In this document: positions 8,171 to 54,394 of the stretch, one piece after another | Numbering within the stretch: the stretch's first letter is position 1 | How the letters are laid out: each line of letters opens with the position of its first letter | Source: Rhodococcus sp. B7740 | Lineage (GTDB): Bacteria > Actinomycetota > Actinomycetes > Mycobacteriales > Mycobacteriaceae | NCBI RefSeq assembly: GCF_000954115.1 | Contig: NZ_CP010797.1 | Location: 4,464,001-4,528,000, forward strand | DNA: 64,000 nt | Direction: 5' to 3' | Made by a program: the position numbers and the translations under genes | The notes under the pieces: model-generated | Seen by the model: the letters and a program-made list of their open reading frames with translations, nothing else | What the model was told of the DNA's origin: nothing | Databases searched by the model: none

Positions 8171-8197
8171 GGAGCCTGCGGTCGTTCCGCAGGCTCC
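8171..8197. terminator. Perfect 11-bp hairpin carrying a copy of dispersed repeat A
   Basis: GGAGCCTGCGG - TCGTT - CCGCAGGCTCC forms a perfect 11-bp stem with a 5-nt loop. It lies about 45 bp beyond the stop of the minus-strand monooxygenase gene, so it probably terminates that gene. The 23 bases at 8180-8202 match exactly the first unit of the tandem array at 33359, linking it to dispersed repeat family A. Confidence 0.7.
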
Positions 8198-8206
8198 ACT
8201 CCGAAT

Positions 8207-8224
8207 TTCGTAGCAGGCTACGAA
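8207..8224. repeat. Short palindrome downstream of the monooxygenase
   Basis: TTCGTAGC-AG-GCTACGAA has perfect 8-bp arms with a 2-bp centre. The spacer is too short for a good RNA loop, which fits a protein-binding site at least as well as a terminator. It starts 17 bp after the monooxygenase stop codon. Confidence 0.45.
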
Positions 8225-8240
8225 CTTCCGCTCACATCAG

Positions 8241-10082
8241 TCACCGCAGGTGATGCACTTCCTGCAACCCGTAGACCGGGGTGTCGATGCCCTCGTAGCG
8301 CGCCTTGATCTGCAGTGCCAGGTACAGCGAATAGTGCCGGGACTGATGCAGATTGCCGCCGTGGAACCAGAAGTTCTCCTGCTGCGTCGGCTTCCACATG
8401 TTGCGCTGCTCGCCCTCCCACGGACCGGGATCCTTGGTGGTGTTCGAGCCGAGTCCCCAGCACTTGCCGACCTTGTCCGCGGTCTCCTGATCGATCAGAT
8501 CGGCGACCCAGCCGTTCATCGAGCCGTAGCCGGTGGCGTAGACGATGAGATCCGCCGGAAGCTCGGTGCCGTCGTCGAGTACGACGCCCGTCTTGCTGAT
8601 GCGTTCCACCTGTCCGGCAACGAGTTTGATCTTCCCGTCCGCGACCAGCTCGGATGCGCCGACGTCGATGTAGTAGCCCGAGCCGCGGCGCAGGTATTTC
8701 ATGAACAACCCTGATCCGTCGTCACCGAAGTCGAGTTGGAACCCGGCCTTCTCCAACCGATCGTAGAAGTCCTTGTCCTGCTCCGCGATCTGCTGATACA
8801 CCGGAATCTGGAACTCGTGCATGATCCGATAGGGCAAGGAAGCGAACGTCAGATCGGCCTTGCCCGTGGTCATTCCGGACTCGACGGCCCGCTCGGAGTA
8901 CAGATCTCCCAGCGCGATCTCGCACAGCGAATCGGACTTGACGATGTGCGTGGACGAGCGCTGCAGCATCGTCACGTCGACGCCCGTCTCGTACAGTGCC
9001 TTGCAGATGTCGTGTGCAGAATTGTTGGAACCGACCACCACGACGCGCTTGCCGACATACGCGTCGGGACCGGGGTGTTCGCTGGAATGATGCTGCTCGC
9101 CCTCGAACTCGTCCATGCCGGGGAAGTTCGGAACATTCTTCTTTCCGGACATTCCGGTGGCCATCACCAACTGCTTGGGCCGCAGAATCACTTCCTCACC
9201 GTCGCGATCGACGACGACCGTCCACTCCTTCGCCACCTCGTCGTAGGTCGCGGACTTCGCGGTGGTCTTGCTCCAGTACGGCACCTCCATGACCTTGGTG
9301 TACATCTCGAGCCAGTCGCCGATCTTGTCCTTCGGCGCGAACACCGGCCAGTTCGGCGGGAACGGCAGGTAGGGGAGGTGGTCGTACCAGACCGGATCGT
9401 GCAGGCACAGCGACTTGTAGCGTCCGCGCCACTGGTCGCCGGGACGGTCGGCCCGGTCGACGACGATCGCAGGCACACCGAGCTGCCTGAACCGCGCGCC
9501 CAGAGCGATGCCGCCCTGGCCTCCGCCGATCACGAGGGCGTACGGCTGCACGCTGTAGCCCAGCTCGGACTCCTCGATCTCCTTCTTCTCCGCCCAGTTC
9601 TGGGTGTCGGCATTCGAGCCGTGCACCGCGCCCTTGATGCGAGTCCTGCCCTGCCGTTCCTCGTATCCCTTGAGCTCCTGCATCGTGGTCAGCAGCGTCC
9701 AGGCCACGTCCTCGCCCGTGTCCGCGTCCACCGTCAGGCGCAGATGTCCTTTGCCGCGGCTCGTGGCGGTCTCGAACTCGATCCACGCCGAGACGACGCC
9801 GTCCGCCTCGTCGGGAACCTCGGTGGTGTGAAAGCCCGTCGGATCGGTGTCGTCGAGGCGCTCGGACAGCATGTCGCTGACACCGTCACGGCCTTCGACG
9901 GTCTTGAGATTCCAGGTGAACGTCACGAGATCGCGCCAGAAGCTGCTGACGGCGAACATGCCGGCTACCCGAGGGATATCACGTGCGACCAGGGCTTCCT
10001 CGAACTTCGACAGCCAGGCGTCGACCCGTTCCTGCGGGGTGTGCGTGCGGGTGATCTCGACCGGCTCGATGGTCTGGGTCAT
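8241..10082 (-). CDS. Flavin-containing monooxygenase with N-terminal NTF2/SnoaL-like domain
   Basis: A 613-residue fusion. Residues ~15-145 form an NTF2-like domain (AWLSKFEEALVARDIPRVAGMF...FWRDLVTFTWNLKTVEGRDGV). The rest is a class B flavoprotein monooxygenase: FAD motif VIGGGQGGIALGARF, the FMO/BVMO-type signature around EFEGEQHHSSEHPG, a second Rossmann motif VVVVGSNNSAHDICKAL and a C-terminal ATGYGSMNGWV segment. It probably oxygenates a ketone or heteroatom using NADPH and O2. The ATG at 10082 has AGGAG upstream; a longer open frame to 10229 has no such site and runs through noncoding repeats. A direct-repeat box 71 bp upstream is shared with the butanediol dehydrogenase promoter. Confidence 0.88.
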   Translation of the reverse strand: MTQTIEPVEITRTHTPQERVDAWLSKFEEALVARDIPRVAGMFAVSSFWRDLVTFTWNLKTVEGRDGVSDMLSERLDDTDPTGFHTTEVPDEADGVVSAWIEFETATSRGKGHLRLTVDADTGEDVAWTLLTTMQELKGYEERQGRTRIKGAVHGSNADTQNWAEKKEIEESELGYSVQPYALVIGGGQGGIALGARFRQLGVPAIVVDRADRPGDQWRGRYKSLCLHDPVWYDHLPYLPFPPNWPVFAPKDKIGDWLEMYTKVMEVPYWSKTTAKSATYDEVAKEWTVVVDRDGEEVILRPKQLVMATGMSGKKNVPNFPGMDEFEGEQHHSSEHPGPDAYVGKRVVVVGSNNSAHDICKALYETGVDVTMLQRSSTHIVKSDSLCEIALGDLYSERAVESGMTTGKADLTFASLPYRIMHEFQIPVYQQIAEQDKDFYDRLEKAGFQLDFGDDGSGLFMKYLRRGSGYYIDVGASELVADGKIKLVAGQVERISKTGVVLDDGTELPADLIVYATGYGSMNGWVADLIDQETADKVGKCWGLGSNTTKDPGPWEGEQRNMWKPTQQENFWFHGGNLHQSRHYSLYLALQIKARYEGIDTPVYGLQEVHHLR

Positions 10083-10152
10083 GAAAACTCCTAGCGATTC
10101 GTGGTTCCAGCGATGTGACCCAGCACACTCCTGATGCGCGCAAGGGTCGAGA

Positions 10153-10168
10153 GTTGCAGTGGGTTGCA
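10153..10168 (-). promoter_or_regulatory. TGCAAC direct-repeat box upstream of the monooxygenase
   Basis: Read along the monooxygenase strand the site is TGCAACCCACTGCAAC, two TGCAAC half-sites spaced one helical turn apart. A 14-of-16 match in the same orientation relative to its gene lies at 13331-13346, before the butanediol dehydrogenase gene. The box begins 71 bp upstream of the start codon, a normal position for an activator. Confidence 0.55.
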
Positions 10169-10174
10169 GTGCGA

Positions 10175-10219
10175 ATCGGGTGCAGACGACCGCGCTCACC
10201 GCGGTTGGCTGCACCCGAT
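10175..10219 (-). terminator. Terminator hairpin behind the truncated hydrolase
   Basis: ATCGGGTGCAG (10175-10185) pairs exactly with CTGCACCCGAT (10209-10219), and CCGCG/CGCGG pairs inside it. It sits 7 bp after the stop of the minus-strand hydrolase remnant, where it would have ended that gene's transcript, and it insulates the monooxygenase promoter. Confidence 0.65.
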
Positions 10220-10225
10220 CTCGAG

Positions 10226-10397
10226 TCATCGACTGCAGCTCGACGTCTCCCGAACGAAGTCGGCGATCAGCAAAGCCAGCTCGGCTGGTCGATCCTCGGA
10301 CACCCAGGTGCGCGAGTGCTCGACCATCGCGAATCGCGAGTGCGGGAAGTCCTCCGCCAGGCGTTTGCCGTGGTCGAGGGGAAAGAAACCCGGAGCC
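10226..10397 (-). pseudogene. Alpha/beta hydrolase remnant (C-terminal end only)
   Basis: About 55 codons match the C-terminal end of alpha/beta hydrolases: FFPLDHGKRLAEDFPHSRFAMVEHSRTWVSEDRPAELALLIADFVRE, the last two strands and helix with the typical SRTWVSEDRP loop that carries the catalytic His region in the family. Everything upstream, including the nucleophile elbow, is gone. At about 10397 the homology stops and the opposite strand begins to encode an AraC fragment. Two divergent genes therefore seem to have lost their 5' halves in one deletion. Confidence 0.65.
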
Positions 10398-10682
10398 GTG
10401 GGTTCGGCCGCAGATCTCGCTGCTGCAGTGAACCTGTCGACATCACGATTTCTGCACCTGTTCGCGGCCGAGACCGGCACCAGCTTCCGCCGATATCGAT
10501 TGTGGGCCAGGATGCTTCACGTCGGTGCCGCGGTCGCCGCGGGTGATGACCTGACCCGGGCTTCTATCGAGGCCGGCTTCGCCTCACCATCACACTTCAG
10601 TACCGCATTCAATGCGATGTTCGGTCTGTCAGCGGTCGCGTTGCTCGGCGGTGGTGCGCAGGTGATCGTGATGGAATCCTGA
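10397..10682 (+). pseudogene. AraC family regulator remnant (DNA-binding domain only)
   Basis: The reading frame encodes both helix-turn-helix units of an AraC domain: ADLAAAVNLSTSRFLHLFAAETGTSFRRYRLWARM and LTRASIEAGFASPSHFSTAFNAMFGLSAVAL. The N-terminal sensing domain is missing and no credible start codon or ribosome site precedes the domain; the open frame upstream to 10134 reads through noncoding DNA and the hydrolase remnant. Its 5' boundary coincides with that of the hydrolase fragment on the other strand. A short functional DNA-binding protein cannot be excluded. Confidence 0.65.
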
Positions 10683-10688
10683 CCGGCG

Positions 10689-11252
10689 CTATCGGGACGA
10701 GGTTGCCGGCTTGACGTATTCGTCCGCGCGCACGATGTCCGCCGCTGTCGGTGCCGCAGCCGGGTCGGTCAGTATCTGCACCGCCAGACCGGTGAGCAGC
10801 GAGTAGTAGTGCGATCCCACGGCATGGATGTCGGACGGATCTGCGTCCGGTCCGAGTCCGCCGAACGCCTGGGCGAGCGCTTCCCTCGACTGGGCCTGCC
10901 CGGATGAGTTGAGCGCGCGCACCTCTGGGTCGCGTTGGACGTACCCGATGGATTCGAAATTGACGAACCAGAGCGCCCGGTTCGCCTCGATGGACGCAAT
11001 GATCCGAGCCCATCGATCGACTGCCGGCAGGTTTCGGTCGCCACCGAGCGCCGAGAAGAGCTTGGTCCCCCATTCCGCGTTGAGTTCCAGCAAGGCGCGG
11101 GTCAGTAGCTGTTCTTTTGATCCGAAGTGGTAGCTGATCGACGCCAAATTTGCGCCCGACGAGGCGACGAGGTCTCGAACGGTGACCTGCGCGTAGCCCT
11201 TTTCGAGCAGGCAGGAACGAGCTGCCTTCAACAGATTGTCTCGATGTCCCAC
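10689..11252 (-). CDS. TetR family transcriptional repressor
   Basis: A 187-residue protein with the TetR N-terminal helix-turn-helix: NLLKAARSCLLEKGYAQVTVRDLVASSGANLASISYHFGSKEQLLTRAL. The C-terminal ligand-binding half is variable and uninformative. It is divergent from an ABC exporter whose promoter region holds a near-perfect 23-bp palindrome, so it very likely represses both the exporter and itself. It starts with GTG at 11252; no in-frame ATG lies nearby. Confidence 0.88.
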   Translation of the reverse strand: MGHRDNLLKAARSCLLEKGYAQVTVRDLVASSGANLASISYHFGSKEQLLTRALLELNAEWGTKLFSALGGDRNLPAVDRWARIIASIEANRALWFVNFESIGYVQRDPEVRALNSSGQAQSREALAQAFGGLGPDADPSDIHAVGSHYYSLLTGLAVQILTDPAAAPTAADIVRADEYVKPATSSR

Positions 11253-11281
11253 AGGGCGTAGGTTAGCACTGCACTGATATA

Positions 11282-11304
11282 AACGTTCGTTTTAAACGAT
11301 CGTT
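11282..11304. promoter_or_regulatory. TetR-type operator between repressor and ABC exporter
   Basis: A 23-bp near-palindrome with half-sites AACGTTCGTTT and AAACGATCGTT. Only one pair of positions in the arms and the central base break the symmetry. It lies 29 bp upstream of tetR and 20 bp upstream of the ATPase gene, a typical place to control both divergent promoters. Confidence 0.75.
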
Positions 11305-11323
11305 CTAGCCGAAGGGGTCGTCT

Positions 11324-12046
11324 ATGTCACTCGAAATCCACGACGTACATGCTGGATACCGCCAAGGGTTCGACGAGGTCCCCGTGCTGCGCGGCGTCAG
11401 CGTGCGAGTCGCGACGAGTTCCTTCACTTCGGTGATGGGCCCGTCTGGTTCCGGCAAGAGCACGCTGCTGCGCTGTGCCGCAGGACTGACAATGCCGTCA
11501 CACGGACGCGTTCTTCTCGACGGGACCGACATCACAGCCCTATCGGGTGACGACCTCACCCGTGCCCGACGCCGTTCGATGGGCTTTGTATTCCAATCGT
11601 TCGATCTCCTACCCGCGCTGACCGTCCGGCAAAATGTGGAACTCCCACTGCGCTTGGACGGCCGTCGACCGGATCGACGCACCACGATCGAGATGCTCGA
11701 CGCTGTCGGCTTGGCAGACTTCGCCGACCGCGGTCCCGACCACCTCTCGGGTGGACAGAAGCAACGGGTCGCGATTGCCCGTGCTGTGATCGGTGACCCT
11801 GCAATCGTATTCGCTGACGAACCGACCGGAGCACTCGACATCAACAGCGCCGCAGACGTACTCTGCAGTCTCCGCAAAATTTCCGACTCGGGCCGCACCA
11901 TCGTCATGGTTACCCATGACCCTGTGGCGGCGGCCGCGTCGGACAAGGTGCTGTTTCTGGCCGACGGCAGATTGGTCGACCAACTGAGTGCACCGACGGC
12001 GCGCGCGGTTGCGTCACGAATGACCGACCTTGTCGCGGCGGCGTGA
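11324..12046 (+). CDS. ABC transporter ATP-binding protein, MacB/LolD type
   Basis: A 240-residue ATPase. Walker A is GPSGSGKST, the signature motif is LSGGQKQRVAIARA and Walker B is AIVFADEPTGALD, the last being typical of the MacB/LolD branch. The conserved H-loop (MVTHDPVAA) is present. It powers the FtsX-type permease encoded 3 bp downstream. Such exporters in actinobacteria usually expel peptides or drugs, and control by a divergent TetR repressor supports a drug or toxic-metabolite role. Confidence 0.92.
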   Translation: MSLEIHDVHAGYRQGFDEVPVLRGVSVRVATSSFTSVMGPSGSGKSTLLRCAAGLTMPSHGRVLLDGTDITALSGDDLTRARRRSMGFVFQSFDLLPALTVRQNVELPLRLDGRRPDRRTTIEMLDAVGLADFADRGPDHLSGGQKQRVAIARAVIGDPAIVFADEPTGALDINSAADVLCSLRKISDSGRTIVMVTHDPVAAAASDKVLFLADGRLVDQLSAPTARAVASRMTDLVAAA

Positions 12047-12049
12047 GAC

Positions 12050-13330
12050 ATGCTGAACTATGCGATCCGAACTCTGTGGAATAGGCGACGTCTTTACGTA
12101 CCAGCTGCGGTCGTGCTCTTCGGCGGACTGACGTTGGTGTTGGCGTTCGTCGGTCTCTTGGCCTCCAGTCGATCGGCAGCAAACCCGGATGATCAACAAT
12201 TCCTGCTGATGTTTCCTGCCATTCTCGGCAGCTGGGTCCTGGCCATTTCGATGTTCGCGATAGCGTCCACGGTCAGTGTGGTAATGCTTGCGCGTGCAGG
12301 GGAATTCGACACCCTGCGTCGACTCGGTGCCACCGGAACTCAGATTCGCCAGCTCATCTGCCTCGAGACGGCAGTCGTGGGAACGATTGTGGCGATTCCC
12401 GCGGCGGCCGCGGGGACGGTGCTGGGTTCGATCATCTTCGCAAGACTGCACACCATCGGAATGGTCGACACGGCAACTGACTATTCGCCCGGGATCGTCA
12501 TGACGAGTGTTGCGACAGGGTGTCTCGTTGCGATCAGTGGTGTTGCGGCACAATTTGGTTCGCGACAGACCGCGTCGCAGCACGACAGCATGAGGCGGCG
12601 TCGGGTGGCCGCTGCACTTGTGCTCGCTGTCGGGATGGGATCGTCGACGGCCGCGTTCGCCGTCGAACCGGACGGTGCCGCGGCGACCGCAACTGCAGGG
12701 CCGGGGACTGTGCTCGTGGCCATCGGTCTTGCTCTACTGACACGAGAGATGCTCGGCGCCGTTTGCCGCGCCTGTACGCTCTTCTTCAAGAAAAGCGGGG
12801 TCAGCGGATATCTCGCCACCATCAATGCGATTGCGGTGGAAGGAGCGCGACCGACGGCGATGTTCCTTACTCTGTTCGTCGGGGTGAGTGTGGGGACCCT
12901 GACGATGCAGCATCTGGAGGACTCCTCGGCCGGCGTGGGCACCGAGGGGCAACTGATGGCGTCGATCAACTACTCGGTGGTCGGCCTCGTCGCGGCTTTC
13001 ATGGCGATTGCCCTGATCAACAACCTGGTTGCGTCGATCGGGCGGCGGAGCGGGGAATTCGGGGTGATGTACCGGATCGGCGCGACATCCGGTCAGACCG
13101 TTGGAATGCTGATGCTCGAAACAGCGGTCGCCGTGCTTGCAGCCGGGACTGTGGGAACGATCGGAGCCGTTCTCGCCGTAGTGCCGTACGCCTATGTCAA
13201 GAGCGGTAGCCCTTTGGCCGCACTGTCACCGACGATCGCGCTCGCGGTGCTGGCGGTCGGCACTGTCCTGGCCATGGGGGTGACTTTCGCTGCGGGTCGC
13301 CGAACCATCAACTCGGTTGTCGGACCGTGA
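12050..13330 (+). CDS. ABC transporter permease, FtsX-like
   Basis: A 426-residue membrane protein with about eight to ten transmembrane segments arranged as two FtsX-like halves. Each half contains the typical cytoplasmic loop: GEFDTLRRLGATGTQIRQLICLETAVVGTI and GEFGVMYRIGATSGQTVGMLMLETAVAVL. It pairs with the ATPase just upstream. No large periplasmic MacB domain is seen, so this is the short actinobacterial export type. Confidence 0.88.
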   Translation: MLNYAIRTLWNRRRLYVPAAVVLFGGLTLVLAFVGLLASSRSAANPDDQQFLLMFPAILGSWVLAISMFAIASTVSVVMLARAGEFDTLRRLGATGTQIRQLICLETAVVGTIVAIPAAAAGTVLGSIIFARLHTIGMVDTATDYSPGIVMTSVATGCLVAISGVAAQFGSRQTASQHDSMRRRRVAAALVLAVGMGSSTAAFAVEPDGAAATATAGPGTVLVAIGLALLTREMLGAVCRACTLFFKKSGVSGYLATINAIAVEGARPTAMFLTLFVGVSVGTLTMQHLEDSSAGVGTEGQLMASINYSVVGLVAAFMAIALINNLVASIGRRSGEFGVMYRIGATSGQTVGMLMLETAVAVLAAGTVGTIGAVLAVVPYAYVKSGSPLAALSPTIALAVLAVGTVLAMGVTFAAGRRTINSVVGP

Positions 13331-13346
13331 TGCAACGCGCTGCAAC
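13331..13346 (+). promoter_or_regulatory. TGCAAC direct-repeat box upstream of butanediol dehydrogenase
   Basis: TGCAACGCGCTGCAAC, two TGCAAC half-sites 10 bp apart, starts directly after the permease stop and ends 63 bp before the dehydrogenase ATG. It matches the box before the monooxygenase gene at 14 of 16 bases in the same relative orientation. The GAF regulator encoded at 15268 is the most plausible ligand, by analogy with AcoR-type control of acetoin genes. Confidence 0.55.
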
Positions 13347-13409
13347 CCTGTCCGAAGTGGCCGGCATCACATAGACATGAATGCATCCGACGATCAGGAG
13401 TGAGAACCG

Positions 13410-14468
13410 ATGCGCGCAGCTGTGTATTACGGACCGAACAAGGTGGAGATCACCGACGTTCCCGAGCCCAGTCCCGGTGAAGGCCAGGTCAAGGTCAAGG
13501 TCGGGTTCAACGGAATCTGCGGAACCGACCTGCACGAGTACTACGCGGGCCCCATCTTCATCCCCACCTCGCCGCATCCGCTGACCGGACAGGAGATGCC
13601 GCTGGTGCTGGGCCACGAGTTCTCGGGAACGGTCACCGAGCTCGGGAAGGGCGTGACCGGCATCGCGGTGGGCGACCGCGTGGCCATCGAGCCGCTGTAC
13701 CGCTGCGGCCACTGCGGACCGTGCCGGGCCGGCAACTACAACATCTGCGCGCAGATCGGTTTCCACGGACTGATGTCCGACGGCGGAATGGCCGAGTACA
13801 CCGTGGTACCCACCGACATGATCCACGCCTTGCCCGACAACGTCTCCCTCGAACTCGGAGCCCTCGTCGAACCGATGTCGGTCGCCTATCACGCTGCGAC
13901 ACTGGGAGATCCGAAGCCCGAGGACACCGCGATGGTGTTCGGAGCCGGCCCCATCGGCATCGGACTGTGGTTCGCCCTGCGCGGTAAGGGTCTCGACAAC
14001 GTCTACGTCGTCGAGCCCTCGCCGACGCGTCGAGCATCGATCGAAGCACTCGGTGCGAAGACACTCGATCCGACGGCCGTCGACGTCCCCGCGTTCATCG
14101 CCGACCTCACCGACGGCAACGGGGCCGACGCCATCTACGACGCGGCAGGCGTGCAACCTGCCGTCGAGACCGCCCTCGGGTGCATCGGAGCGCGTAAGCC
14201 GCTGGTCAGCGTCGCGATCTACGAAAAGCCGTTGACCACACCGCTGCAGAAGCTGGTGATGAACGAATCGAGAATCCAGGGCTCGCTCTGCTACACCGCC
14301 GCCGACTACGAGGCCGTCATCGACCTGATGAGCCAGGGCCACTACGACACGACGGGGTGGGTGGACAAGATCACGCTCGACGGCGTCATCGACGATGGAT
14401 TCGAGGCGCTGCATGCGGGCACCAAGATGAAGGTCCTGGTCGACCCCTCCACCGGAGCAGCGTCATGA
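13410..14468 (+). CDS. (R,R)-butanediol dehydrogenase-like zinc alcohol dehydrogenase
   Basis: A 352-residue medium-chain dehydrogenase. Catalytic zinc ligands lie in [10 protein letters not shown] and GHEFSG, structural zinc ligands in [15 protein letters not shown], and the NAD-binding glycine motif is [10 protein letters not shown]. The long insertion after the first zinc ligand ([16 protein letters not shown]) is typical of 2,3-butanediol dehydrogenases. It interconverts butanediol and acetoin using NAD(H). The ATG follows AGGAGTGAGAACCG. Its stop overlaps the start of the acetoin reductase gene. Confidence 0.88.
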
Positions 14469-15232: not shown

Positions 15233-15267
15233 CCCCCGTTCATTCCGATTTGTGAGCTGGAGCACAA

Positions 15268-16569: not shown

Positions 16570-16590
16570 GCCGTAGCGCAGAATCGGGGA

Positions 16591-18648: not shown

Positions 18649-18682
18649 CCTTCACACCGTGACAAGGTCTTGGCTGACCGTC

Positions 18683-19327: not shown

Positions 19328-19336
19328 GATGGAGCG

Positions 19337-20311: not shown

Positions 20312-20333
20312 CCCTTTGGGTACCGTCGACGGT

Positions 20334-20675: not shown

Positions 20676-20694
20676 AACTCCTAGGCTCAGGGGC

Positions 20695-21105: not shown

Positions 21106-21122
21106 CACGACTAGGAGTAGCT

Positions 21123-21415: not shown

Positions 21416-21456
21416 CCGACCCCGCCCCTCCCCGCCGCCCCGCCGCCCTTGGGGAG

Positions 21457-21512: not shown

Positions 21513-21561
21513 GGGGTGGCCGAAATTGGTGCACAGTTGAGGTGCATCTAGTATCTATGTT

Positions 21562-30654: not shown

Positions 30655-30745
30655 CACGGTCACGAGTACCAGCATCAAGCCCCGGCTAGCTGGTCGGCAA
30701 CCCTCCTCCGCGGTGGGGTGCTCCGGGTGACGACCAGGCTGATGC
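30655..30745 (+). ncRNA. SAM-IV riboswitch
   Basis: The stretch contains the conserved elements of the actinobacterial SAM-IV aptamer in order: GTCACGAGTACCAGC, AAGCCCCGGCTAGCTGGTC, GGCAACCCTCC, CGCGGTGGGGTGC and CCGGGTGACGACCAGGC. ACCAGC (30668-30673) pairs with GCTGGT (30689-30694). It binds S-adenosylmethionine and, by family precedent, lowers expression of the downstream sulfur gene when SAM is plentiful. A CCGG-AAAA-CCGG hairpin follows at 30744-30756. The ATG of the aminotransferase lies ~85 bp downstream. Confidence 0.88.
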
Positions 30746-30827
30746 CGGAAAACCGGCGCGGCAAGCGCGGACTCGTTCACCACGTCCTTCGGTTGCGGGT
30801 CCCTCGAACGTGAGGGCTTGATCTGTC

Positions 30828-32159
30828 ATGACATCTGTACTCTCCCGCCCCTGTGCTCCTTTTGCCCCTGTTTCGGGCACGGATCTACAGGTGCCGCTGG
30901 TCCACGGCGGCACATGCACTTACGCGAACTTCGATTACGCCGCCAGCGCGCCGGCCCTGGACGCGGTGACCGATCGGATCGCCGAACTGCTGCCGTTCTA
31001 CTCGAGCGTGCATCGGGGTGCCGGCTACGCCTCACGGGTCTCGACGGCGGCGTACGAGAAGGCTCGGGTGACGGTCGCTGATTTCGTTGGTGCGCACAGT
31101 GATTCGGTGGTGGTGTTCACACGGAACACCACCGACTCGCTGAACCTGCTGGCCGCCTGCGTGCCGGGCGATACCGTGGTACTCGACATCGAACACCACG
31201 CGAACCTGCTCCCGTGGCGCGATCGACGAGTGGTGGTGGCGGCGTCGACCCTCGCCGAGACCATCACGCGGCTCGACGTGGAGCTCGCCGCGAAACCTGC
31301 TGCACTACTGGCGATCACGGGCGCATCGAACGTCACCGGTGAGGTACTTCCCATCGCGGAACTCGCAGCACTGGCGCATCGGCACGGCGCACGCATCGCG
31401 GTGGACGGTGCCCAGCTGGTTCCGCATCGGCGGGTCGACATCGCCGCACTCGGCGTGGACTACCTCGCGTTCTCCGGCCACAAGCTCTACGCCCCGTTCG
31501 GCGCGGGAGTGCTTGTGGGCACACGTGATTGGCTCGACGCCGGTGAGCCGCACCTGGCCGGCGGCGGCGCGGTGCGCAGCGTGAGCATCGACAACACCGA
31601 CTGGGCCCCGGCACCGCAGCGGCACGAGGCGGGCACGCCCAACGTGCTCGGGGTCGCCGCTCTCGCCGCGGCCTGCGAGGCCATCGCCGGATTCGACGGT
31701 GCCGAGCTGCAGGCGCACGAGCAGGAATTGTCGTCCCGACTGCGGCGCGGCCTGACGGATCTGGACGGCGTCGAGCAGCTCCGGGTCTGGGCCGACGCGC
31801 CCGACAGTGTCGGCATCGTCACCTTCACCGTTGCCGGACGCGATCCCGGTGAGGTGGCCGCGTACCTGTCCGCCGAACACGGAATCGGCGTGCGCGACGG
31901 CAAGTTCTGCGCACACCCCCTGCTGAGCCGGCTGGGGCACGCGGCCGGAGCGGTTCGAGCCAGCATCGGCCTCGGCAGCTCGTCGGCCGATGTGGACCGA
32001 CTCGTCGACGCTCTCGCCGCCCTGGTCGAGTCGGGACCGAACTGGCACTACGCGGAGGATGCCGGCTGGTGGAACCCCGTACCCGACCCGCGACCCTTCC
32101 CCGAGCTGGCCGACGGGGCCGCCGGGGTTGGATCCCCATGCAGCCCCGCAGGCCGTTAG
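30828..32159 (+). CDS. Class V aminotransferase (cysteine desulfurase-like), SAM-IV controlled
   Basis: A 443-residue PLP enzyme of fold type I. The PLP-binding Lys is in FSGHKLYAPFGAG, the Asp/Gln pair in VDGAQLVPH, and FTRNTTDSLNLL binds phosphate. The N-terminal YANFDYAASAPAL and C-terminal VRASIGLGSSSADVDRLVDAL are typical of the CsdA/SufS-like group. The SAM-IV aptamer upstream points to a role in methionine/cysteine sulfur metabolism rather than Fe-S assembly, since no suf gene is near. ATG 30828. Confidence 0.87.
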   Translation: MTSVLSRPCAPFAPVSGTDLQVPLVHGGTCTYANFDYAASAPALDAVTDRIAELLPFYSSVHRGAGYASRVSTAAYEKARVTVADFVGAHSDSVVVFTRNTTDSLNLLAACVPGDTVVLDIEHHANLLPWRDRRVVVAASTLAETITRLDVELAAKPAALLAITGASNVTGEVLPIAELAALAHRHGARIAVDGAQLVPHRRVDIAALGVDYLAFSGHKLYAPFGAGVLVGTRDWLDAGEPHLAGGGAVRSVSIDNTDWAPAPQRHEAGTPNVLGVAALAAACEAIAGFDGAELQAHEQELSSRLRRGLTDLDGVEQLRVWADAPDSVGIVTFTVAGRDPGEVAAYLSAEHGIGVRDGKFCAHPLLSRLGHAAGAVRASIGLGSSSADVDRLVDALAALVESGPNWHYAEDAGWWNPVPDPRPFPELADGAAGVGSPCSPAGR

Positions 32160-33358: not shown

Positions 33359-33484
33359 GGTCGTTCCGCAGGCTCCACTCCCGCCCTACTGGGTCGTTCC
33401 CGCAGGCTCCACTCCCGCCCTACTGGGTCGTTCCTGCAGGCTCCACTCCCGCCCTACTGGGTCGTTCCTGCAGGCTCCACTCCC
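33359..33484. repeat. Tandem array of dispersed repeat A (four units)
   Basis: Four head-to-tail units of about 34 bp (33359-33390, 33391-33424, 33425-33458, and partial 33459-33484) share GTTCCYGCAGGCTCCACTCC followed by a CGCCCTACTGG linker; the first unit lacks one base. Single copies of the core occur at 8180, 50446 and 54334 (the last two inverted). The last units overlap the 3' end of the allantoicase gene and provide its final codons and stop. Confidence 0.85.
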
Positions 33485-34437
33485 GCGAGATCACCGAACA
33501 GTCTCAATCGCGCCATCCCGCCGTCGGGGAAGATGTCCATGCGCACCTCGGAGACCGGGGTGTCGTGGGTGAGCACGAAGCGATGCCGGGTGTCGGGCTG
33601 CAGCGTCGTACGTGGCAACAGTTCGATCCACTCGCCGTCGCCGAGCCGGCCACGCAGAGACGCCGCACCGGGCGCGTTTCCGAGGAAGCAGGTGGTGTCG
33701 AGTTCGGCCAGAGAGATGAGCCCGGTGCCGGCGAGCTGCACCTGAACCCAGTCGTTCGCCTCGTTGCGTCGACGCGAGGTCTCCCAGCCTTCACCCATCG
33801 ACCGTGGGGGTCCGGGGAAGAGCAGGTTGTTGGGCGAGCTGTAGAACATGTTCGAGCATGCCGAGACGTACGCGCCGTTCTCGAGTGCAGCCAGGTCCAC
33901 CGGCCCGGCAGCGAGAAATTTCGGGTCGGGCTTGCCGCGGCCGAGCACCCGCAACCGCGCCACTCCGCCATCGGGATAGATCGACAGCTTCACGTGCGTC
34001 CACCGAGCATCGGAGGCGACGGTGAACCTGTTCTCGCTGTCGCCGTCGACCGAGCTGCGCGGGACGATCGTGGTCCACTCCGTCTGGGTGTGAAGCTCCT
34101 CCGGTGACGGAAAGCCGTCGACCTCGGCGGCCTCGATCGAGATCTCCGGCGGATAGTTTCCGGTGAACCACGCGGTGTCGACGACGACCGCCGAGACGAC
34201 ACCCGGCGCTCCGAGACGAACGATGGCCTCGTCGTAGCCGGCCTCGCGTCGGCGTCGTGTCTCCCACCCGTCGTAGATCTGGCCCTTGTGTCCGAACGTC
34301 GCCGTCGAGTAGTCGGCTTTTCCGGGCCGGACGAGATTCTCCTTCTCCGCGAACGTCTCGTCGTTCGCCCACACGACTGCGCCTCCGAGTGTGCGGACGG
34401 CGAGATCGGGCAGTGGCAAGGGGAAGTTGGCGGTCAT
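33454..34437 (-). CDS. alc: Allantoicase
   Basis: A 327-residue protein of two homologous beta-sandwich halves, as in allantoicases: the first contains ANDETFAEKENLVRPGKADY, GQIYDGWETRRRREAGYDEAIVRLG and WFTGNYPPEISIEA; the second repeats SNMFYSSPNNLLFPG, GEGWETSRRRNEANDWVQVQLAG and TTCFLGNAPGAASL. It splits allantoate to ureidoglycolate and urea. The last residues, [10 protein letters not shown], are encoded by the repeat array, so the gene's natural end has been replaced or extended by repeat DNA. ATG start at 34437. Confidence 0.92.
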   Translation of the reverse strand: MTANFPLPLPDLAVRTLGGAVVWANDETFAEKENLVRPGKADYSTATFGHKGQIYDGWETRRRREAGYDEAIVRLGAPGVVSAVVVDTAWFTGNYPPEISIEAAEVDGFPSPEELHTQTEWTTIVPRSSVDGDSENRFTVASDARWTHVKLSIYPDGGVARLRVLGRGKPDPKFLAAGPVDLAALENGAYVSACSNMFYSSPNNLLFPGPPRSMGEGWETSRRRNEANDWVQVQLAGTGLISLAELDTTCFLGNAPGAASLRGRLGDGEWIELLPRTTLQPDTRHRFVLTHDTPVSEVRMDIFPDGGMARLRLFGDLAGVEPAGTTQ

Positions 34438-39974: not shown

Positions 39975-40037
39975 GCGTTTCCCCAAACTAGTTTCGTCGG
40001 CGTTCGGCCGAGGGCGAGGTGTGTGATGCCGAAACGA

Positions 40038-44684: not shown

Positions 44685-44710
44685 GTTCGTTCCTTCGGTC
44701 CGCCCCGCCC

Positions 44711-44764
44711 GCGTGAATGGACCATTGCCGCGCGGAGACGCATGCAATGGTCCATCGATGCGGA
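44711..44764. repeat. Dispersed palindrome B, copy 1 (after hpt)
   Basis: Left arm GCGTGAATGGACCATTGC (44711-44728) and right arm GCAATGGTCCATCGATGC (44744-44761) are near-perfect inverted copies with a 15-nt loop. Two more copies lie at 61267-61317 and 61329-61381. It can form a long RNA hairpin and may terminate the tilS-hpt transcript. The remaining ~200 bp before ftsH hold that gene's promoter; CGCTAGCCTGGAGTAT near 44891 is a possible -10 region. Confidence 0.75.
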
Positions 44765-44973
44765 TAAGGTGCCCATCAGGTGGGGAACTGCCGGGGGAGT
44801 GCAGTCGTTGGAGGGGAAGGAGCGTCGACGCAAACAGGTGCGTGGACGCACAGCGCCAGGTAAGAGCGAGTCAGATGTCCGAGTCTCGCGCTAGCCTGGA
44901 GTATCCGGCGGGCAGGGAGCAGCCAGCGCGCTGGAGCGGACTGAAAGGACACGGCCGACTCGGCTGAAGCTGT

Positions 44974-47883: not shown

Positions 47884-48032
47884 GTCCATCATTAGGCTGG
47901 CTGGGTCGACCCTTTCGGTCGGCCCAGTCCGTCGTTCGAACCGTGCTGAAGGTCGACGCAGCTGCTCGTGAAGAACAGGTGCAGTTCGGCCCAGCTGTCA
48001 CATTCGCGGAGCCCAACCGGAGGTACGTTCTC

Positions 48033-48701
48033 GTGTCAGTCAACCGGACCGACGAGTCGGCAATCGACTCGGCAGAAGTCCCAGCAGCGCAGCAGAGGGC
48101 AGTGGAAGAGACAGTGGCCTACGCCACCGGCGCGGTCTTCGACCAGCCTCGCGCCGAGGCCGCCGTGCGGGAGCTGTTGATCGCCGTCGGCGAGGATCCC
48201 GACCGTCCAGGTCTGCTCGACACCCCTGCCCGCGTCGCGCGTTCCTACCGCGAAATTTTCGCCGGGCTCTACACCGACCCGGACACTGCGCTGAACACGA
48301 CGTTCGACGAGGGGCACCAGGAACTGGTTCTCGTCCGCGACATCCCCATGTTCTCCACGTGCGAGCATCACCTGGTCTCGTTCCATGGCGTTGCACACGT
48401 CGGTTACATCCCTGGCAAGAGCGGCAAGGTCACCGGCCTGTCGAAGCTGGCGCGCGTGGTGGACATGTACGCCAAGCGCCCGCAGGTGCAGGAGCGTCTG
48501 ACCAGCCAGATCGCCGACGCGTTGATGCGCAAGCTCGACCCGCGCGGTGCGATCGTCGTGATCGAGGCCGAGCACCTGTGCATGGCCATGCGCGGGATTC
48601 GCAAGCCGGGTGCCAGTACCACCACCTCCGCGGTGCGGGGTCTGTTGCAGTCCAGCGCGGCGTCGCGTTCGGAAGCTCTGGACCTGATTCTGCGGAAATG
48701 A
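48033..48701 (+). CDS. folE: GTP cyclohydrolase I
   Basis: A 222-residue enzyme with the zinc/active-site motif [39 protein letters not shown] and [23 protein letters not shown]. It converts GTP to dihydroneopterin triphosphate, the first step of folate synthesis. GTG 48033 follows GGAGGTACG; upstream codons in frame have no ribosome site. First gene of the folE-P-B-K run. Confidence 0.95.
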
Positions 48702-48720
48702 CGCGTCCGGTCGATTCCCG

Positions 48721-49569
48721 ATGAGCCCGGCGCGAAGTATCCCCCCGGCACCCGTCGTCATGGGTGTACTCAACGTCACTGCCGATTCGTTCTCCGACGG
48801 CGGTCGATACCTCGACGTCGACGCTGCCGTCGAACACGGGTTGGCGATGCATCGTCGCGGCGTCGACATAGTCGACGTCGGTGGTGAGTCGACGCGGCCC
48901 GGAGCAGACCGGATCGATCCGACACTCGAGGCGCAGCGTGTCGTACCGGTCATCGCTGCGCTCGCCGAAGCAGGGGTGGCCACCAGCGTCGACACGATGC
49001 GTGCCTCGGTCGCCGAGGCCGCGATCGAGGCCGGGGTATCGATCGTCAACGACGTCTCGGGCGGTCGGGCGGATCCGGCCATGGCCGGGGTGGTTGCGGA
49101 CGGCGGATTGCCGTGGATCCTGATGCACTGGCGAGCCGCCGGATCCGAATACCGGCACGCCGGTCCGGCCGATCGGTACCACGACGTGGTCGCCGACGTC
49201 CGCAGTGAACTGCTCGAACAGGTCGACCACGCAGTGGCCGCAGGAGTGGACACCGCGATGCTCGTGCTCGACCCGGGCCTCGGCTTCGCCAAGAACGCCG
49301 AGCACAACTGGCAACTGCTCCGTGGCCTCCCCGATCTGGTGTCGGCCGGCTTCCCGGTTCTCGTCGGTGCCTCCAGGAAGCGATTCCTCGGATCACTGCT
49401 GGCGGACGACGACGGTTCTCCGCGACCGCCGGACGGGCGAGAGGTCGCCACGGCCGTGGTGTCGGCGCTCGCCGTCGCCGGGGGAGCGTGGGGTGTGCGC
49501 GTGCACGACGTTCGAGCGTCACTCGACGCGGTGGCGGTCGTACGGGCATGGCAGGGTGATCGGGCATGA
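48721..49569 (+). CDS. folP: Dihydropteroate synthase
   Basis: A 282-residue TIM barrel. Signatures: [45 protein letters not shown] and [18 protein letters not shown], with the sulfonamide-site loop [12 protein letters not shown]. It joins pteridine pyrophosphate to p-aminobenzoate. Overlaps folB by 4 bp. Confidence 0.95.
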
Positions 49570-49970
49570 GCGAGATCAGCAGCCGCGTCGGCACCGGGAC
49601 GCGTCGCGGCGACCGCATCGAACTGCGTGGCCTGACGGTGCGCGGCAATCACGGCGTCTTCGACTTCGAGAAGCGAGACGGGCAGGACTTCGTCGTCGAC
49701 ATCACCGTCTGGATGGACCTGCGGCCCGCGGCCGAGACCGACGACCTGACGCGAACCCTGCACTACGGAGAACTGGCCGAGCACGCCGCGGCTGTCGTCG
49801 CGGGCCCGTCGAGGGATCTGATCGAGACGGTCTCGGCCGAGATCGCCGAGGTCGTGCTGGCGTACGACTCACGCGTCGACGCGGTGGAAGTGGTGCTGCA
49901 CAAGCCGTCGGCACCCATCCCGTTGACGTTCGGGGACGTTGCCGTGGTGGCGTACCGGGAGCGGTCGTGA
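49566..49970 (+). CDS. folB: Dihydroneopterin aldolase
   Basis: A 134-residue tunnelling-fold protein: [67 protein letters not shown] and [21 protein letters not shown] contain the active-site Glu/Tyr/Lys. It makes 6-hydroxymethyl-dihydropterin. Starts inside the end of folP and overlaps folK by 4 bp. Confidence 0.94.
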
Positions 49971-50509
49971 CCCGGGCGGTGCTGTCCATCGGCAGCAACG
50001 TCGGTGATTCGCTGGCCCACTTGCGTTCTGTCGCAACCGAATTGGGTCCACGGTTGGTGGCCTGCTCGTCGGTCTATCGCTCCGCTCCCTGGGGCGGCGT
50101 GGAGCAGCAGGATTTCCTCAATGCCGTCGTGGTGGCCGAGGACGAAGCGTTCGACGCCTGGGATTGGTTGCGCTTCGGGCAGCGCCTCGAGGAGGCGGCC
50201 GATCGCGTTCGAGTCCAGCGGTGGGGGCCGCGGAGCCTCGACGTCGACGTGGTGGTGTGCGAGAACCTGATCAGCGAGGACCCTCGTCTGATCCTTCCGC
50301 ACCCGCGCGCGCACGAGCGGGCGTTCGTCCTGCTGCCGTGGCTGGACGTCGAACCGGACGCCACCCTGCGCGTCGGCGACGACGATGTGCCGGTGACCGA
50401 ATTGCTCGCGCGACTGAGTCCGGAGGAGCGTGCGGGAGTTGTCCAGCAGGAGTGGAGCCTGCAGGAACGACCAAAAGAGCACGAAGGCGTCGGTGATGGG
50501 TCGTGGTGA
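49967..50509 (+). CDS. folK: HPPK, 6-hydroxymethyl-dihydropterin pyrophosphokinase
   Basis: A 180-residue kinase: [54 protein letters not shown] and [21 protein letters not shown] are the family motifs. It pyrophosphorylates the pterin before FolP acts. GTG start overlapping folB. The conserved fold ends near residue 157; the last residues [19 protein letters not shown] are encoded by a copy of dispersed repeat A, an extension not expected from the family. Confidence 0.94.
50446..50473 (-). repeat. Dispersed repeat A inside the 3' end of folK
   Basis: Minus-strand copy of the element in the array at 33359: on this strand it reads GCAGGAGTGGAGCCTGCAGG followed by AACGACCA. GCAGG and CCTGC can pair as a small hairpin. 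It is translated as the FolK tail segment EWSLQERP. Confidence 0.8.
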
Positions 50510-50976
50510 CCAATCCCACCAAGGTCTGGGATGTGCTGGGTCTTTTCCTGGTCGCCTCGATAGGCACGTGGTTGCTGGTTCGGGTCTTCTACGGCTCGTT
50601 GCCTCCGATTCCGGTGTACGCCGGGGCGTCGTTGTATCTGGTCGCGGTGGTGCAAGTGGTCACCGCGGTGATCGTTCGCAACCGCATCGCCGAGCATCGG
50701 GTGGGCAGCGGTCTGCACGATCTGCACCCGTTGACTGTGTTCAGGGCGTTGGTGTTGGCCAAGGCATCGATGCTGGTGGGGACCGCTGTCGTCGGAGTGT
50801 GCGTCGGGTTTCTGGTGTACGTGATACCGCGTGCGGCGACGGTGCGGGCAGCGTCGTCGGACAGGGCCGGAGCCGTCGTCGCGCTCGTGGCGGGACTGGC
50901 CGTCGTCGCTGCCGCGGTGTGGCTCGAACAGTGCTGCCGTACCCCGGAAGACCGTGACGACGAGCGTTCTCGGTAA
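50503..50976 (+). CDS. DUF3180 membrane protein
   Basis: A 157-residue protein with four transmembrane helices (VLGLFLVASIGTWLLVRVFY, AGASLYLVAVVQVVTAVIV, ALVLAKASMLVGTAVVGVCVGFLVYVI, AGAVVALVAGLAVVAAAVWLEQCCR). DUF3180 always follows folK in mycolata. Function unknown. GTG start at 50503 overlaps folK by 7 bp. Confidence 0.88.
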   Translation: MVTNPTKVWDVLGLFLVASIGTWLLVRVFYGSLPPIPVYAGASLYLVAVVQVVTAVIVRNRIAEHRVGSGLHDLHPLTVFRALVLAKASMLVGTAVVGVCVGFLVYVIPRAATVRAASSDRAGAVVALVAGLAVVAAAVWLEQCCRTPEDRDDERSR

Positions 50977-51066
50977 CGCTCGAAACATTTGATTGTTACC
51001 TCGGTTGTGTAAGTGATCGGTCGAGGATGACTATTTGCGAACGATTTGCCAGTTACCCTTGTGAAC

Positions 51067-52431
51067 ATGACAGATCAGACTCGCGCAAAGAAGGGACGCC
51101 GTAAGAGGCGTAGTGCGAGCCAGCTGTTCCTCGCGGCGCTCGTCGTGTTCGGCATCATCGCCAGTGTGTTGATGCTCTTCACCGAGAGCGTGCAGTGGAT
51201 GAGAGTCGGTGTCCTTTCGGCGCTGTGGGCTGCGGTGATCGGTGCGTTCGCGATGACCAAATACCGGCGCGAGGCGGCCGCCGATCAGATCAAGGCCAAG
51301 GATCTGCAGACGGTCTACGAGTTGCAGTTGGCTCGGGAGATCTCGGCGCGACGCGAGTACGAGATGAACGTCGAAGCCAGGGTTCGCAGCGAATCGCAGC
51401 TCGAGATCGACGAGGTCGCAGCACTGCGCAACGAACTCGCTGCCCTCCGCCAGAACCTGCAGGTGCTCTTCGACGGCAATCTGCCCACCGAACGTGTCGC
51501 ACTGCGTGCCGAAGCGATGAGGATGCAAGAACTCGGCGGACGCGGGTACGACAGCTACCAACCTGCGCCGTCCGGCCTGTACGTCCCCGGTCGCGGCAAC
51601 GGTTCGATGGCACCGGGAACCGGCCTCAACGGAGTCGGAACTCCCTACGACGAGCCGGTCACAGCCGAGACGTCGGTGGTGTACCCCGAGGATCCGGACG
51701 AAATGCCGCAGGCCACGGCGTCCGCAGCGGCATCGTCGACTGCCGAATCGGCCCAGGATTCGTACGCCGAGGATTCGTTCGAGGAGACGAGTCACGACAC
51801 GGACGCCTCCGACACGGACGCGGACCCGTACGAGCGACCTGCAGCACAGGCCCGTCCCTACGGTGCACCGAGACCGGCGGGGCGCGTGACGCCGCCCAGC
51901 TCCCCTTTCACCGCATACGACTTCGAGCAGACGCGTCGACCTGCGGCCGAGCCGGAACCCGAGGCGGAGCCAGAGCCGCAGGCCACAGCCGAGACCGAAC
52001 ACACGGAGGTCGATTCGGTCGGTTCGTACTCCACGGGTTCGTTCTCCGCGGACTCGTACTCGACAGACTCGTATTCCACGGAGTCCTATGCTGCGGATCC
52101 GTTCTCCGCGGAGCCGAACGTGCAATCCGAGAACGAGCCCGCCGCGGACCGGAACGGCGACGCCCTCTCTGAGTCTCGCGCCTCGCTGCGTGAATCGGCG
52201 GACGCGTTCTTCGCGGCCGACCACGACTACCGGACATCGGTTGAGGACACGTCCGTCTCGCCCCGACGCGGTCGTAGGCGCGCGGAGTCGACCGACGACG
52301 AGGATGCGTCGGGCGCACACTCGAACGGTCGATCCGTCGCCGAGATCATGGCCGGACTGCAAGGCGGAGGGTCCGGAGATGCGGCCACGACCGACCCGGG
52401 CACACGCCGCCGTCGCCGTCGCGCAGACTGA
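51067..52431 (+). CDS. DUF6779-type membrane protein with long disordered tail
   Basis: A 454-residue protein with two transmembrane helices (LFLAALVVFGIIASVLMLF and VGVLSALWAAVIGAFAM), then a coiled-coil region to ~residue 145 (DLQTVYELQLAREISARREYEMNVEARVRSESQLEIDEVAALRNELAALRQNL). The rest is acidic, Ser/Glu/Ala-rich and probably disordered, with short repeats such as SYSTDSYSTESYAADPFSAEP. ATG 51067. Conserved neighbour of folK-DUF3180 in Rhodococcus and mycobacteria; function unknown, possibly a cell-envelope scaffold. Confidence 0.78.
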   Translation: MTDQTRAKKGRRKRRSASQLFLAALVVFGIIASVLMLFTESVQWMRVGVLSALWAAVIGAFAMTKYRREAAADQIKAKDLQTVYELQLAREISARREYEMNVEARVRSESQLEIDEVAALRNELAALRQNLQVLFDGNLPTERVALRAEAMRMQELGGRGYDSYQPAPSGLYVPGRGNGSMAPGTGLNGVGTPYDEPVTAETSVVYPEDPDEMPQATASAAASSTAESAQDSYAEDSFEETSHDTDASDTDADPYERPAAQARPYGAPRPAGRVTPPSSPFTAYDFEQTRRPAAEPEPEAEPEPQATAETEHTEVDSVGSYSTGSFSADSYSTDSYSTESYAADPFSAEPNVQSENEPAADRNGDALSESRASLRESADAFFAADHDYRTSVEDTSVSPRRGRRRAESTDDEDASGAHSNGRSVAEIMAGLQGGGSGDAATTDPGTRRRRRRAD

Positions 52432-52544
52432 GAACCAGATCACACAGTTCTTCCATGGCCCGCGAGGGGCGCGGTCGCTATTGTTCCGTGCAGGACGTCC
52501 GGTACCCGCAGAGCGGGACTGGAACGAACGAGAGGAAATTTTCG

Positions 52545-53459
52545 GTGACCTCATCCGGGTTCACTGGTGGTCTGTCTCCGGCTCGCTTGACGGTAGGTGT
52601 CGTCTCGGCGGGACGGGTCGGTACCGCATTCGGTGAGGCGCTCGAACGCGTCGGGCACGTGGTCGTCGGTGCCGCTGCCGTGTCGGACGCGTCCATCACG
52701 CGGGTGCGTGAGCGGCTCCCCGAGTCCCAGGTGCTGCCCGTCGACGAGGTTGCTCGGCGCGCCGAACTGCTGATCCTGGCGGTACCGGACAGCGAGTTGG
52801 CATCGATCGTGGCGGGCCTGGCGTCCACCGGAGCGGTGGCACCGGGAAAGTTGGTGGTGCATACCTCCGGCGCGAACGGGATCTCGGTACTCGAGCCGCT
52901 GTCCGCTCTCGGTGCCGTGCCGTTGGCGATCCACCCGGCCATGACGTTCAGCGGCGGAGTCGAGGACACCGACCGGATGACGGCGGCGTGCTTCGGCATC
53001 ACCGCAGGCGACGAGATCGGCTACGCGGTGGCGCAGGCCCTGGTGCTCGAGATCGGCGGCGAGCCGGTGCACGTGCCCGAGAACAATCGGCCGCTCTACC
53101 ACGCCGCGCTCGCGCACGGCAGCAATCACCTCGTCACGCTTGTGGTCGACGCGGTCGAAGCGCTCCGAGTTGCATTGGCCGGACCGGGTTTTCCCGGTTC
53201 GGATTCCGAACGCGGTGTGCCCGAGCGTGTTCTGGCTCCACTGCTCGAAGCTGCGCTGGACAATGCCCTGCGCAACGGACAGTCGGCGCTCACCGGGCCG
53301 GTGGCCCGCGGCGATACCGCGGCCGTCGGCAAGCATCTCGACGTACTCGAATCCGTGGATTCGAGGATCGCAGCCGGATACCGCGCGCTGTCCTTGCGAT
53401 CGGCGCAGCGGATCGGTGCCAAGGCAGACCTGATCGAACTTCTGGAAGGCAATCGATGA
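52545..53459 (+). CDS. Rossmann-fold DUF2520 protein
   Basis: A 304-residue two-domain protein. N-terminal dinucleotide fold [29 protein letters not shown] and [33 protein letters not shown] and [13 protein letters not shown] follow, then the all-helical DUF2520 half ([23 protein letters not shown]). It resembles ketopantoate reductase and prephenate dehydrogenase-like enzymes. Position directly before panC suggests a link to pantothenate synthesis, possibly as a reductase, which is an inference. GTG 52545 follows GAGAGGAAA. Confidence 0.87.
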
Positions 53460-54394
53460 CCCTCGCGGGCAGCTACACCAAGGGGCAGTTGACGGTTCAC
53501 CACGATCCTGCGGTGATCACGTCGGTGTCGAAAGCACTTCGCGGCGTCGGGAAGCAGGTCGCTCTGGTTCCGACCATGGGCGCGCTGCACGCCGGGCACG
53601 TGCAGTTGGTGCGGCAGGCCAAGCTCACCGGTGCGGTGGTGATCGTGTCGATCTTCGTCAACCCGCTGCAGTTCGGTGTGGGTGAGGACCTCGAGGCCTA
53701 CCCGCGCACCCTCGACGCCGATGTCGCGTTGCTGCGTGAGGAGGGCGTCGAACTGGTCTTCGCGCCGTCGGCGTCGGACATGTATCCGTCGGGTCCGCGC
53801 ACCACCGTCAATCCCGGACCGCTCGGCGCAGAGCTCGAAGGCTCGAGCAGGCCAACGCATTTCGCCGGAATGCTCACCGTGGTGGCCAAGCTGCTGCAGA
53901 TCGCGGCTCCGCATCGCGCGTACTTCGGCGAGAAGGACTACCAGCAACTGACATTGATCCGGCAGATGGTGCGCGATCTGAACTTCGACGTCGCCGTCAT
54001 CGGGGTCCCGACGGTTCGCGAGCAGGACGGTCTTGCGCTGTCCTCGCGTAATCGCTACCTCGACCCCGAGCAGCGTGACGCCGCGATGGCGCTGTCGGCC
54101 GCGCTGGTCGCCGGGGCGCACGCCGCGGCCGGGGGAGTCGAGGCCATCATCGCCACTGCGCGTGCCGTTCTGGACGAGGCTCCGCTGGTGCAGGTCGACT
54201 ACCTGGAGGTGCGCGACCCGCATCTCGGTCCGGCTCCCGAACGTGGGGACGGCAGACTGCTCGTGGCGGCCAAGGTCGGCACCACGAGATTGATCGACAA
54301 TGTCGGTGTCGCAGTCGGCACCGGTTTTCTGGAGGCAGGAGTGGAGCCTGCGGAACGACCAGAAAAAATTAGTCCCGACGATCCGAAAAGCTGA
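53456..54394 (+). CDS. panC: Pantothenate synthetase
   Basis: A 312-residue enzyme: [20 protein letters not shown] holds the HIGH-like motif, [41 protein letters not shown] and [15 protein letters not shown] (KMSKS-like). It condenses pantoate with beta-alanine using ATP. Overlaps the preceding gene by 4 bp. The normal protein ends near residue 288; the tail [20 protein letters not shown] is partly encoded by dispersed repeat A. Confidence 0.95.
54334..54361 (-). repeat. Dispersed repeat A inside the 3' end of panC
   Basis: Minus-strand copy reading GGCAGGAGTGGAGCCTGCGG followed by AACGACCA on this strand. It differs from the folK copy at only a few bases and is translated in another frame as [19 protein letters not shown] form a short stem with a 7-nt loop. 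Confidence 0.8.

Follow-up and report, generated by a model that had tools for sequence, protein, structure and literature searches.

A short repeat that occurs seven times in a 64,000-nucleotide stretch of Rhodococcus sp. B7740 (contig NZ_CP010797.1, positions 4,464,001 to 4,528,000; this whole stretch is referred to here as the window) is probably a mobile element, non-autonomous and very small (about 23-27 bp), a reading to which a probability of roughly 0.7 can be given. It is read as mobile because orthologous sites are found empty, because duplications flank it, and because its copy number varies, and the mobility that had been suggested in an earlier note on this DNA is supported by these three observations. 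The element has the consensus (GCR)GGAGYGGAGCCTGC(N)GRARYGACC, in which 23 or 24 nt are strongly conserved, with GCR upstream of them. Its core exists in two forms, of 23 and 24 nt, the difference being one optional base after CCTGC. The seven copies lie at the four loci given by the earlier note, with cores at 8180-8202, 33359-33483 (four in tandem), 50449-50472, and 54338-54360, and their occurrence is far beyond chance: a sequence model of 28 positions, built from 30 copies, retrieves them at E values of 1.2e-9 to 1.7e-7, and the next-best match has an E value of 0.02. The K-containing 20-mer printed in the earlier note, with up to three substitutions allowed, retrieves only four of the seven, given that the variable base is absent from the copies at 8180, 33359, and 54338; its chance expectation in the window was 0 in 100 shuffles. 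The neighbouring genes had also been named correctly, with Pfam identifying a flavin monooxygenase-like gene, allantoicase, HPPK (folK), and pantoate-beta-alanine ligase (panC).

Empty counterparts were found at about 12 distinct sites, with varying cleanness. The loci (designated by L numbers) that form filled/empty pairs are L170/window, L171/L071, L184/L045, L072/L118, L118/L072, L109/L063, L063/L109, L086 and L090/L068, L180/L041, and L087/L051. The folK site is empty in two relatives (L199 and L202) and holds three copies in L198. The panC site is empty in nine relatives, the insertion there being 35-36 nt long, and the panC-panD segment measures 58-76 nt (mostly 74-76) without the element and 105-111 nt with one copy. 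The net length of single-copy insertions is mostly 33-38 nt, with 29-30 nt in two cases and about 45 nt in one. A scripted tally of 33 empty sites is too high, given that some of the rows scored as empty hold degenerate variants and others align badly, and only the individually named cases are relied on; the folK row L200, the panC rows L203 and L208, and L161 were wrongly scored in this manner and are filled with one-base or more degenerate variants. Array copy number also differs between orthologues (12/2, 4/1, and 3/1), and L079, which is orthologous to the site of the allantoicase array, holds one copy.

The duplications were evaluated in 76 clean de-duplicated single copies, drawn from 111 clean ones. 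The two flanks of these copies have a summed similarity of 354; shuffled pairings give 301.9 +/- 8.5, and none of 5000 shuffles reached the observed value. For windows at a greater distance, the excess is not clear (320 versus 309.3 +/- 8.6). A flank score of 7 or more was obtained for 7 of the 76 copies (null 1.6%), and the best duplications are found at L103 (10/10 nt), L147 (9/9 nt), and L054 (13/13 nt), as well as at L171. For the tandem arrays, the outermost spacers of 48 de-duplicated arrays of 65 were compared with their surroundings. The similarity between the last spacer and the downstream flank is 281 (versus 166.5 +/- 7.3), and that between the first spacer and the upstream flank is 229 (versus 166.0 +/- 6.9), so that both spacers resemble the host sequence next to them. 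Spacer length has a peak at 10 nt (31 of 82 spacers) and a range of 7-24 nt, and the spacers are all identical in 11 of the 24 arrays of three or more copies. Given that the spacers match both host flanks, n elements tend to carry n+1 copies of host sequence, as would follow if the target is duplicated upon insertion and the duplication later serves for tandem growth. Clustered regularly interspaced short palindromic repeats (CRISPR) are ruled out, because the spacers are alike within an array and similar to the host flanks.

A mobile element of this kind would insert at a staggered cut in the target, where gap filling would duplicate about 7-13 bp, and the duplications would then let units of element plus duplication multiply or shrink by slippage or unequal crossing-over. 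Movement must occur in trans, given that the element lacks inverted ends and that no enzyme linked to it was found. The likeliest route, favoured tentatively and at clearly less than even odds, would be that a short copy, either single-stranded DNA or derived from RNA, is joined in at staggered breaks. The wider proposal is that a 23-27-nt sequence spreads without a dedicated transposase: host end-joining or a reverse transcriptase would capture a copy derived from RNA or single-stranded DNA at staggered breaks, and the duplications would seed minisatellites. This proposal is more speculative still. The spread of the spacer lengths mildly favours break capture or reverse transcription, and their peak at 10 nt mildly favours a transposase. 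The target duplications, the peak at 10 nt, which fits a transposase acting at a fixed offset, and an element length similar to that of a terminal inverted repeat could all be explained if the repeat were a decayed or solo end of an ordinary insertion sequence or of a miniature inverted-repeat transposable element (MITE), moved in trans by a DDE transposase. Nonetheless, this origin is unlikely, though still worth considering: terminal inverted repeats were looked for in the consensus and none was found, so that a second inverted end is missing; no transposase family occurs at two or more of 83 genes beside the arrays of the genome to which the window belongs (G000, in which the window is part of a single 5.34-Mb contig), with one IS21 IstB among them; the window itself has only one IS110 transposase; and the spacers vary from 7 to 24 nt.

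Several observations weigh against the repeat being a mobile element. A clear duplication (score of 6 or more) is present in only 21 of the 76 single copies (null 6.8%, about 5 expected), and the panC, folK, and recent-looking L184 insertions show no duplication or an imperfect one; the single copies without a clear duplication may reflect decay or a second class of insertions. Inverted duplications of the flanks were set aside, since the inverted similarity is not raised overall, yet there is a slight excess at the top scores, with 3 of 65 single copies scoring 7 or more versus 1.25% expected. The panC site has been reused within about a codon in scattered lineages (window 54335-54360, L196-L225) that have close relatives without the element, and the panC copies differ in sequence type and number between lineages. 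This recurrence is poorly explained by a random inserter, and may reflect either a hot spot or a single old insertion that was lost many times. The nearly constant place in panC, although sequence types differ among lineages, and the freely varying array number would also suit a spread by recombination, gene conversion, or template switching between copies, with no transposition step. This is improbable as the general explanation, given that new loci with host-derived direct duplications (L147, L119, L171) need an insertion step.

The last of these points is that no enzyme has been tied to the repeat. Y1_Tnp (PF01797) is present in 1 of the 37 genomes of the genus and absent from G000, in a search that matched 5 of 14 control genomes. 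The reverse transcriptase family PF00078 is found in 34 of the 37 genomes, including 5 of the 6 that lack the exact repeat, and was not found in the carriers G031 and G037. For this reason, and because a 10-kb stretch around the reverse transcriptase gene of G000 has no close match to the element, a reverse transcriptase was rejected as the mover. The G000 gene is located at G000:C1:3895180-3895794 (L226:4258-5514), PF00078 being present mostly once per genome in the genus, and its best PADLOC matches are RT_other/RT_outgroup/RT_XIII (retron-like). The stretch before this gene folds more strongly than its shuffles (z -2.19).

In these Rhodococcoides genomes, which are those of soil and plant bacteria, the repeat has reached on the order of a hundred sites or more. 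It is abundant in G000, where 79 exact 14-mer cores are found in 47 arrays, compared with 0 matches in the whole genome for the control 14-mer, reversed without complementing. A looser model gives at least 135 matches in this genome, with at most about 150 candidates scored per genome. A scan of named genomes returned at least 120 stretches, and the 80 that were listed all belong to Rhodococcus or Rhodococcoides. The exact 22/23-mer GGAGTGGAGCCTGC(N)GRAAYGAC occurs in 31 of the 37 genomes of the genus, 9 to 119 times in each, and is absent from six; under the same limit on candidates, the looser model finds 0-6 copies in these six genomes and 22-172 in the carriers other than G000. At the level of the family, 19 of 201 genomes match, from 5 of 31 genera, and the nine matches from outside the genus have 1-7 copies each. 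At the level of the class, 2 of 394 genomes match, both of them within the genus. Six copies from other genera were examined, with frames predicted by a model trained on G000; five are inside predicted frames, and two of these five, L273 and L274, are apparently at the same site. Carriage by phages or plasmids was rejected, given that the 22/23-mer had no match in viral contigs and one 161-nt array had none in plasmid and phage collections. No description of this repeat was found in a literature search by title and start of abstract, which most subscription papers fall outside.

Each of the four window loci is at the 3' end of a gene and reads GGAGTGGAGCC along the strand of the gene concerned, from which the earlier note had proposed an element aimed at gene ends with a constant orientation. 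The genome-wide picture was obtained with a simple codon-model gene finder for 47 arrays of G000, which include all 79 exact cores, and 47 arrays of a second genome, G004, which cover 94 of its 117 genome-wide cores. The arrays are largely intergenic, 34 of 47 in G000 (null 9.3%) and 31 of 47 in G004 (null 10.2%), with the remaining 29 of 94 in genes; L055, a copy inside an M18 aminopeptidase gene in antisense, is a clear case of the latter. The 3'-end location holds genome-wide only as a lean: 43 of the 65 intergenic arrays are up to 100 nt behind a stop codon, a zone that holds 37.7% of all intergenic bases, and random placement in the same gaps would give 38.3 +/- 1.9 (p 0.011). Near starts there are fewer arrays than expected (38 of 65 versus 43.7 +/- 2.1). 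For the 36 arrays in codirectional gaps, the average position, once the array itself is removed, is at 0.28 of the distance from the stop to the next start (z -4.5). Codirectional, convergent, and divergent gaps have shares that do not clearly depart from the null (p 0.05 to 1.0), 18 arrays of the two genomes lying between divergent genes. The arrays in genes are found in the first 100 nt (11 of 29, p 0.0001) as well as in the last 100 nt (8 of 29, p 0.008), where about 3 are expected in each, the former count being subject to the uncertainty of predicted gene starts.

The constant orientation does not extend to the genome. Among arrays up to 100 nt from a single stop codon, 27 are on the same strand as the gene and 17 on the opposite one (p 0.17); in codirectional gaps, 20 run along the genes and 16 against them; within genes, 15 are sense and 14 antisense. 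Counting copies by stop codon and strand, as had been proposed, shows a modest lean to stops: the arrays are found preferentially at gene edges and downstream of genes, with no significant strand rule. The lean can be explained without a preference for gene ends, because avoidance of promoters and gene bodies would give the same pattern, and the most likely reason for the enrichment between genes, at gene edges, and at a distance from starts is that insertions in gene bodies and promoters are selected against. The location and single orientation of the window copies, together with the lean to stops and the displacement towards them in codirectional gaps, would also be expected of a transcription-end or 3'-untranslated-region signal selected at gene ends. 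The lean raised the odds of such a signal slightly, and they remain very low: there is no significant strand rule, a considerable number of arrays are in genes or between divergent genes, copies in genes are no less concentrated at 5' edges than at 3' edges, and orthologous genes are often without the element. The transcription-end role that the earlier note had raised is, therefore, highly improbable, and none is demonstrated. A shared function of the neighbouring genes was also rejected, since no Pfam family matches more than 3 of 83 genes, taken from 91 listed beside the G000 arrays.

Intergenic palindromes of the type GTGAGCGGAACTTCGTAG...CTACGAAGTTCCGCTCAC were observed at window 8150-8260 and at L067, L069, L075, and L171, and the element is inserted into or beside some of them. 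An insertion preference for palindromes, suggested by the copy at 8180 and by L069, L075, and L171, was rejected because such stems are not enriched: among the intergenic arrays, 6 of 34 in G000 have a stem of 8 or more beside them, versus 16% of random intergenic positions, and 0 of 31 in G004, versus 14%.

Within the element, GCAGG can pair with CCTGC around a 7-nt loop on the sense strand, so that a 5-bp stem is possible in many copies. A hairpin kept by covariation is unsupported, given that, of 348 copies, 135 have a break at pair 1 and 42 have one at pair 3, with 3 double changes. In an Rfam search of the window, L048, L051, and L053, the repeat matches no RNA family. The earlier note had likened the repeat to repetitive extragenic palindromic (REP) sequences mobilised by a REP-associated tyrosine transposase (RAYT); a short, dispersed, mostly intergenic repeat with a possible stem invites this comparison, which can nonetheless be practically dismissed, since the genomes lack Y1_Tnp almost throughout, the multi-copy groups listed are head-to-tail and not inverted doublets (REPINs), and the stem is broken in part of the copies.

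Among known systems, the repeat appears most to resemble the small dispersed repeats (SDR) of Nostoc, a likeness drawn from general features. SDR elements were reportedly described by Elhai et al. in 2008 from Nostoc punctiforme and relatives. They are 21-27 nt long, dispersed, found mainly in one clade, apparently mobile, and often next to tandem repeats, and are not known to have an enzyme of their own; in some families, a hairpin with compensatory changes is reported. The repeat described here likewise has 23 or 24 nt plus GCR, is dispersed, is mobile as judged from empty sites, and belongs mainly to one genus. It differs in that its host is actinobacterial, that its arrays consist of element plus locus-specific sequence resembling a target duplication, and that a compensatory-change hairpin is unconfirmed with 3 double changes in 348 copies. 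MITEs are non-autonomous and have target duplications; the repeat shares the first property and has clear target duplications in a subset of loci, but it lacks terminal inverted repeats and is far shorter. The mycobacterial interspersed repetitive units (MIRU) form tandem arrays between genes with variable copy number. By description only, the repeat is similar to these in its related host group, its intergenic tandem arrays, and its variable copy number, but its unit is much shorter and its orientation to neighbouring genes is not fixed. PMC3116915 names SDR and covers REP/REPIN elements with RAYT, and PMC3733652 covers GTAG- and CGTC-tagged repeats; the words Rhodococcus, Actinobacteria, Mycobacterium, and Nocardia are absent from the main text of the latter. 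Compared with REP/REPIN elements as presented there, the repeat is also short, non-autonomous, and mostly extragenic, but it has no RAYT, shows no inverted doublets among the listed groups, and has target duplications in a subset.

The 31 carriers versus 6 non-carriers, the about a dozen empty/filled pairs, and the readable duplications mean that the insertion step and the enzyme responsible can be sought. The question of how mobility arises in sequences of some 20-30 nt that have no enzyme of their own has, to our knowledge, been open since the Nostoc SDRs. The repeat also offers a concrete origin for locus-specific tandem repeats, which are possible strain-typing markers in a genus that has plant-associated members. 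If capture at breaks is the true mechanism, this would be one of the smallest mobile DNAs known, and bacterial intergenic tandem repeats would have a general birth route, in which a target is duplicated and then grows in tandem.

The copies in the window and the spacers of the array are listed in Table 1.

Table 1. Copies of the element and array spacers in the window, with adjoining genes.
Feature	Position	Strand	Context
Single copy, 23-nt form	8180..8202	-	Downstream of a flavin monooxygenase-like gene, after its stop codon (gene prediction, Pfam)
Array copy 1, 23-nt form	33359..33381	-	
Locus-specific 10-nt spacer	33382..33391	.	Copies 2 and 3 are each followed by the identical 10 nt
Array copy 2, 24-nt form	33392..33415	-	
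10-nt spacer	33416..33425	.	
Array copy 3, 24-nt form	33426..33449	-	
10-nt spacer	33450..33459	.	
Array copy 4, 24-nt form	33460..33483	-	Within the 3' end of the allantoicase frame (33454-34437, - strand)
Single copy, 24-nt form plus GCA	50446..50472	+	In the 3' end of folK (49967-50509, + strand); HPPK/folK by Pfam
Single copy, 23-nt form plus GCA	54335..54360	+	In the 3' end of panC (53456-54394, + strand); pantoate-beta-alanine ligase by Pfam

Other features were observed in the window. The IS110-family transposase gene is at 6704-7786, about 400 bp from the repeat copy at 8180. A SAM-IV (S-adenosylmethionine) riboswitch is found at 30658-30773 (111 bits), upstream of a gene predicted at 30891-32159. 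A separate palindromic repeat, built around GTGAATGGACCATTG and its complement, is present at 44703-44768 and 61259-61388 in three copies, two of which are adjacent.

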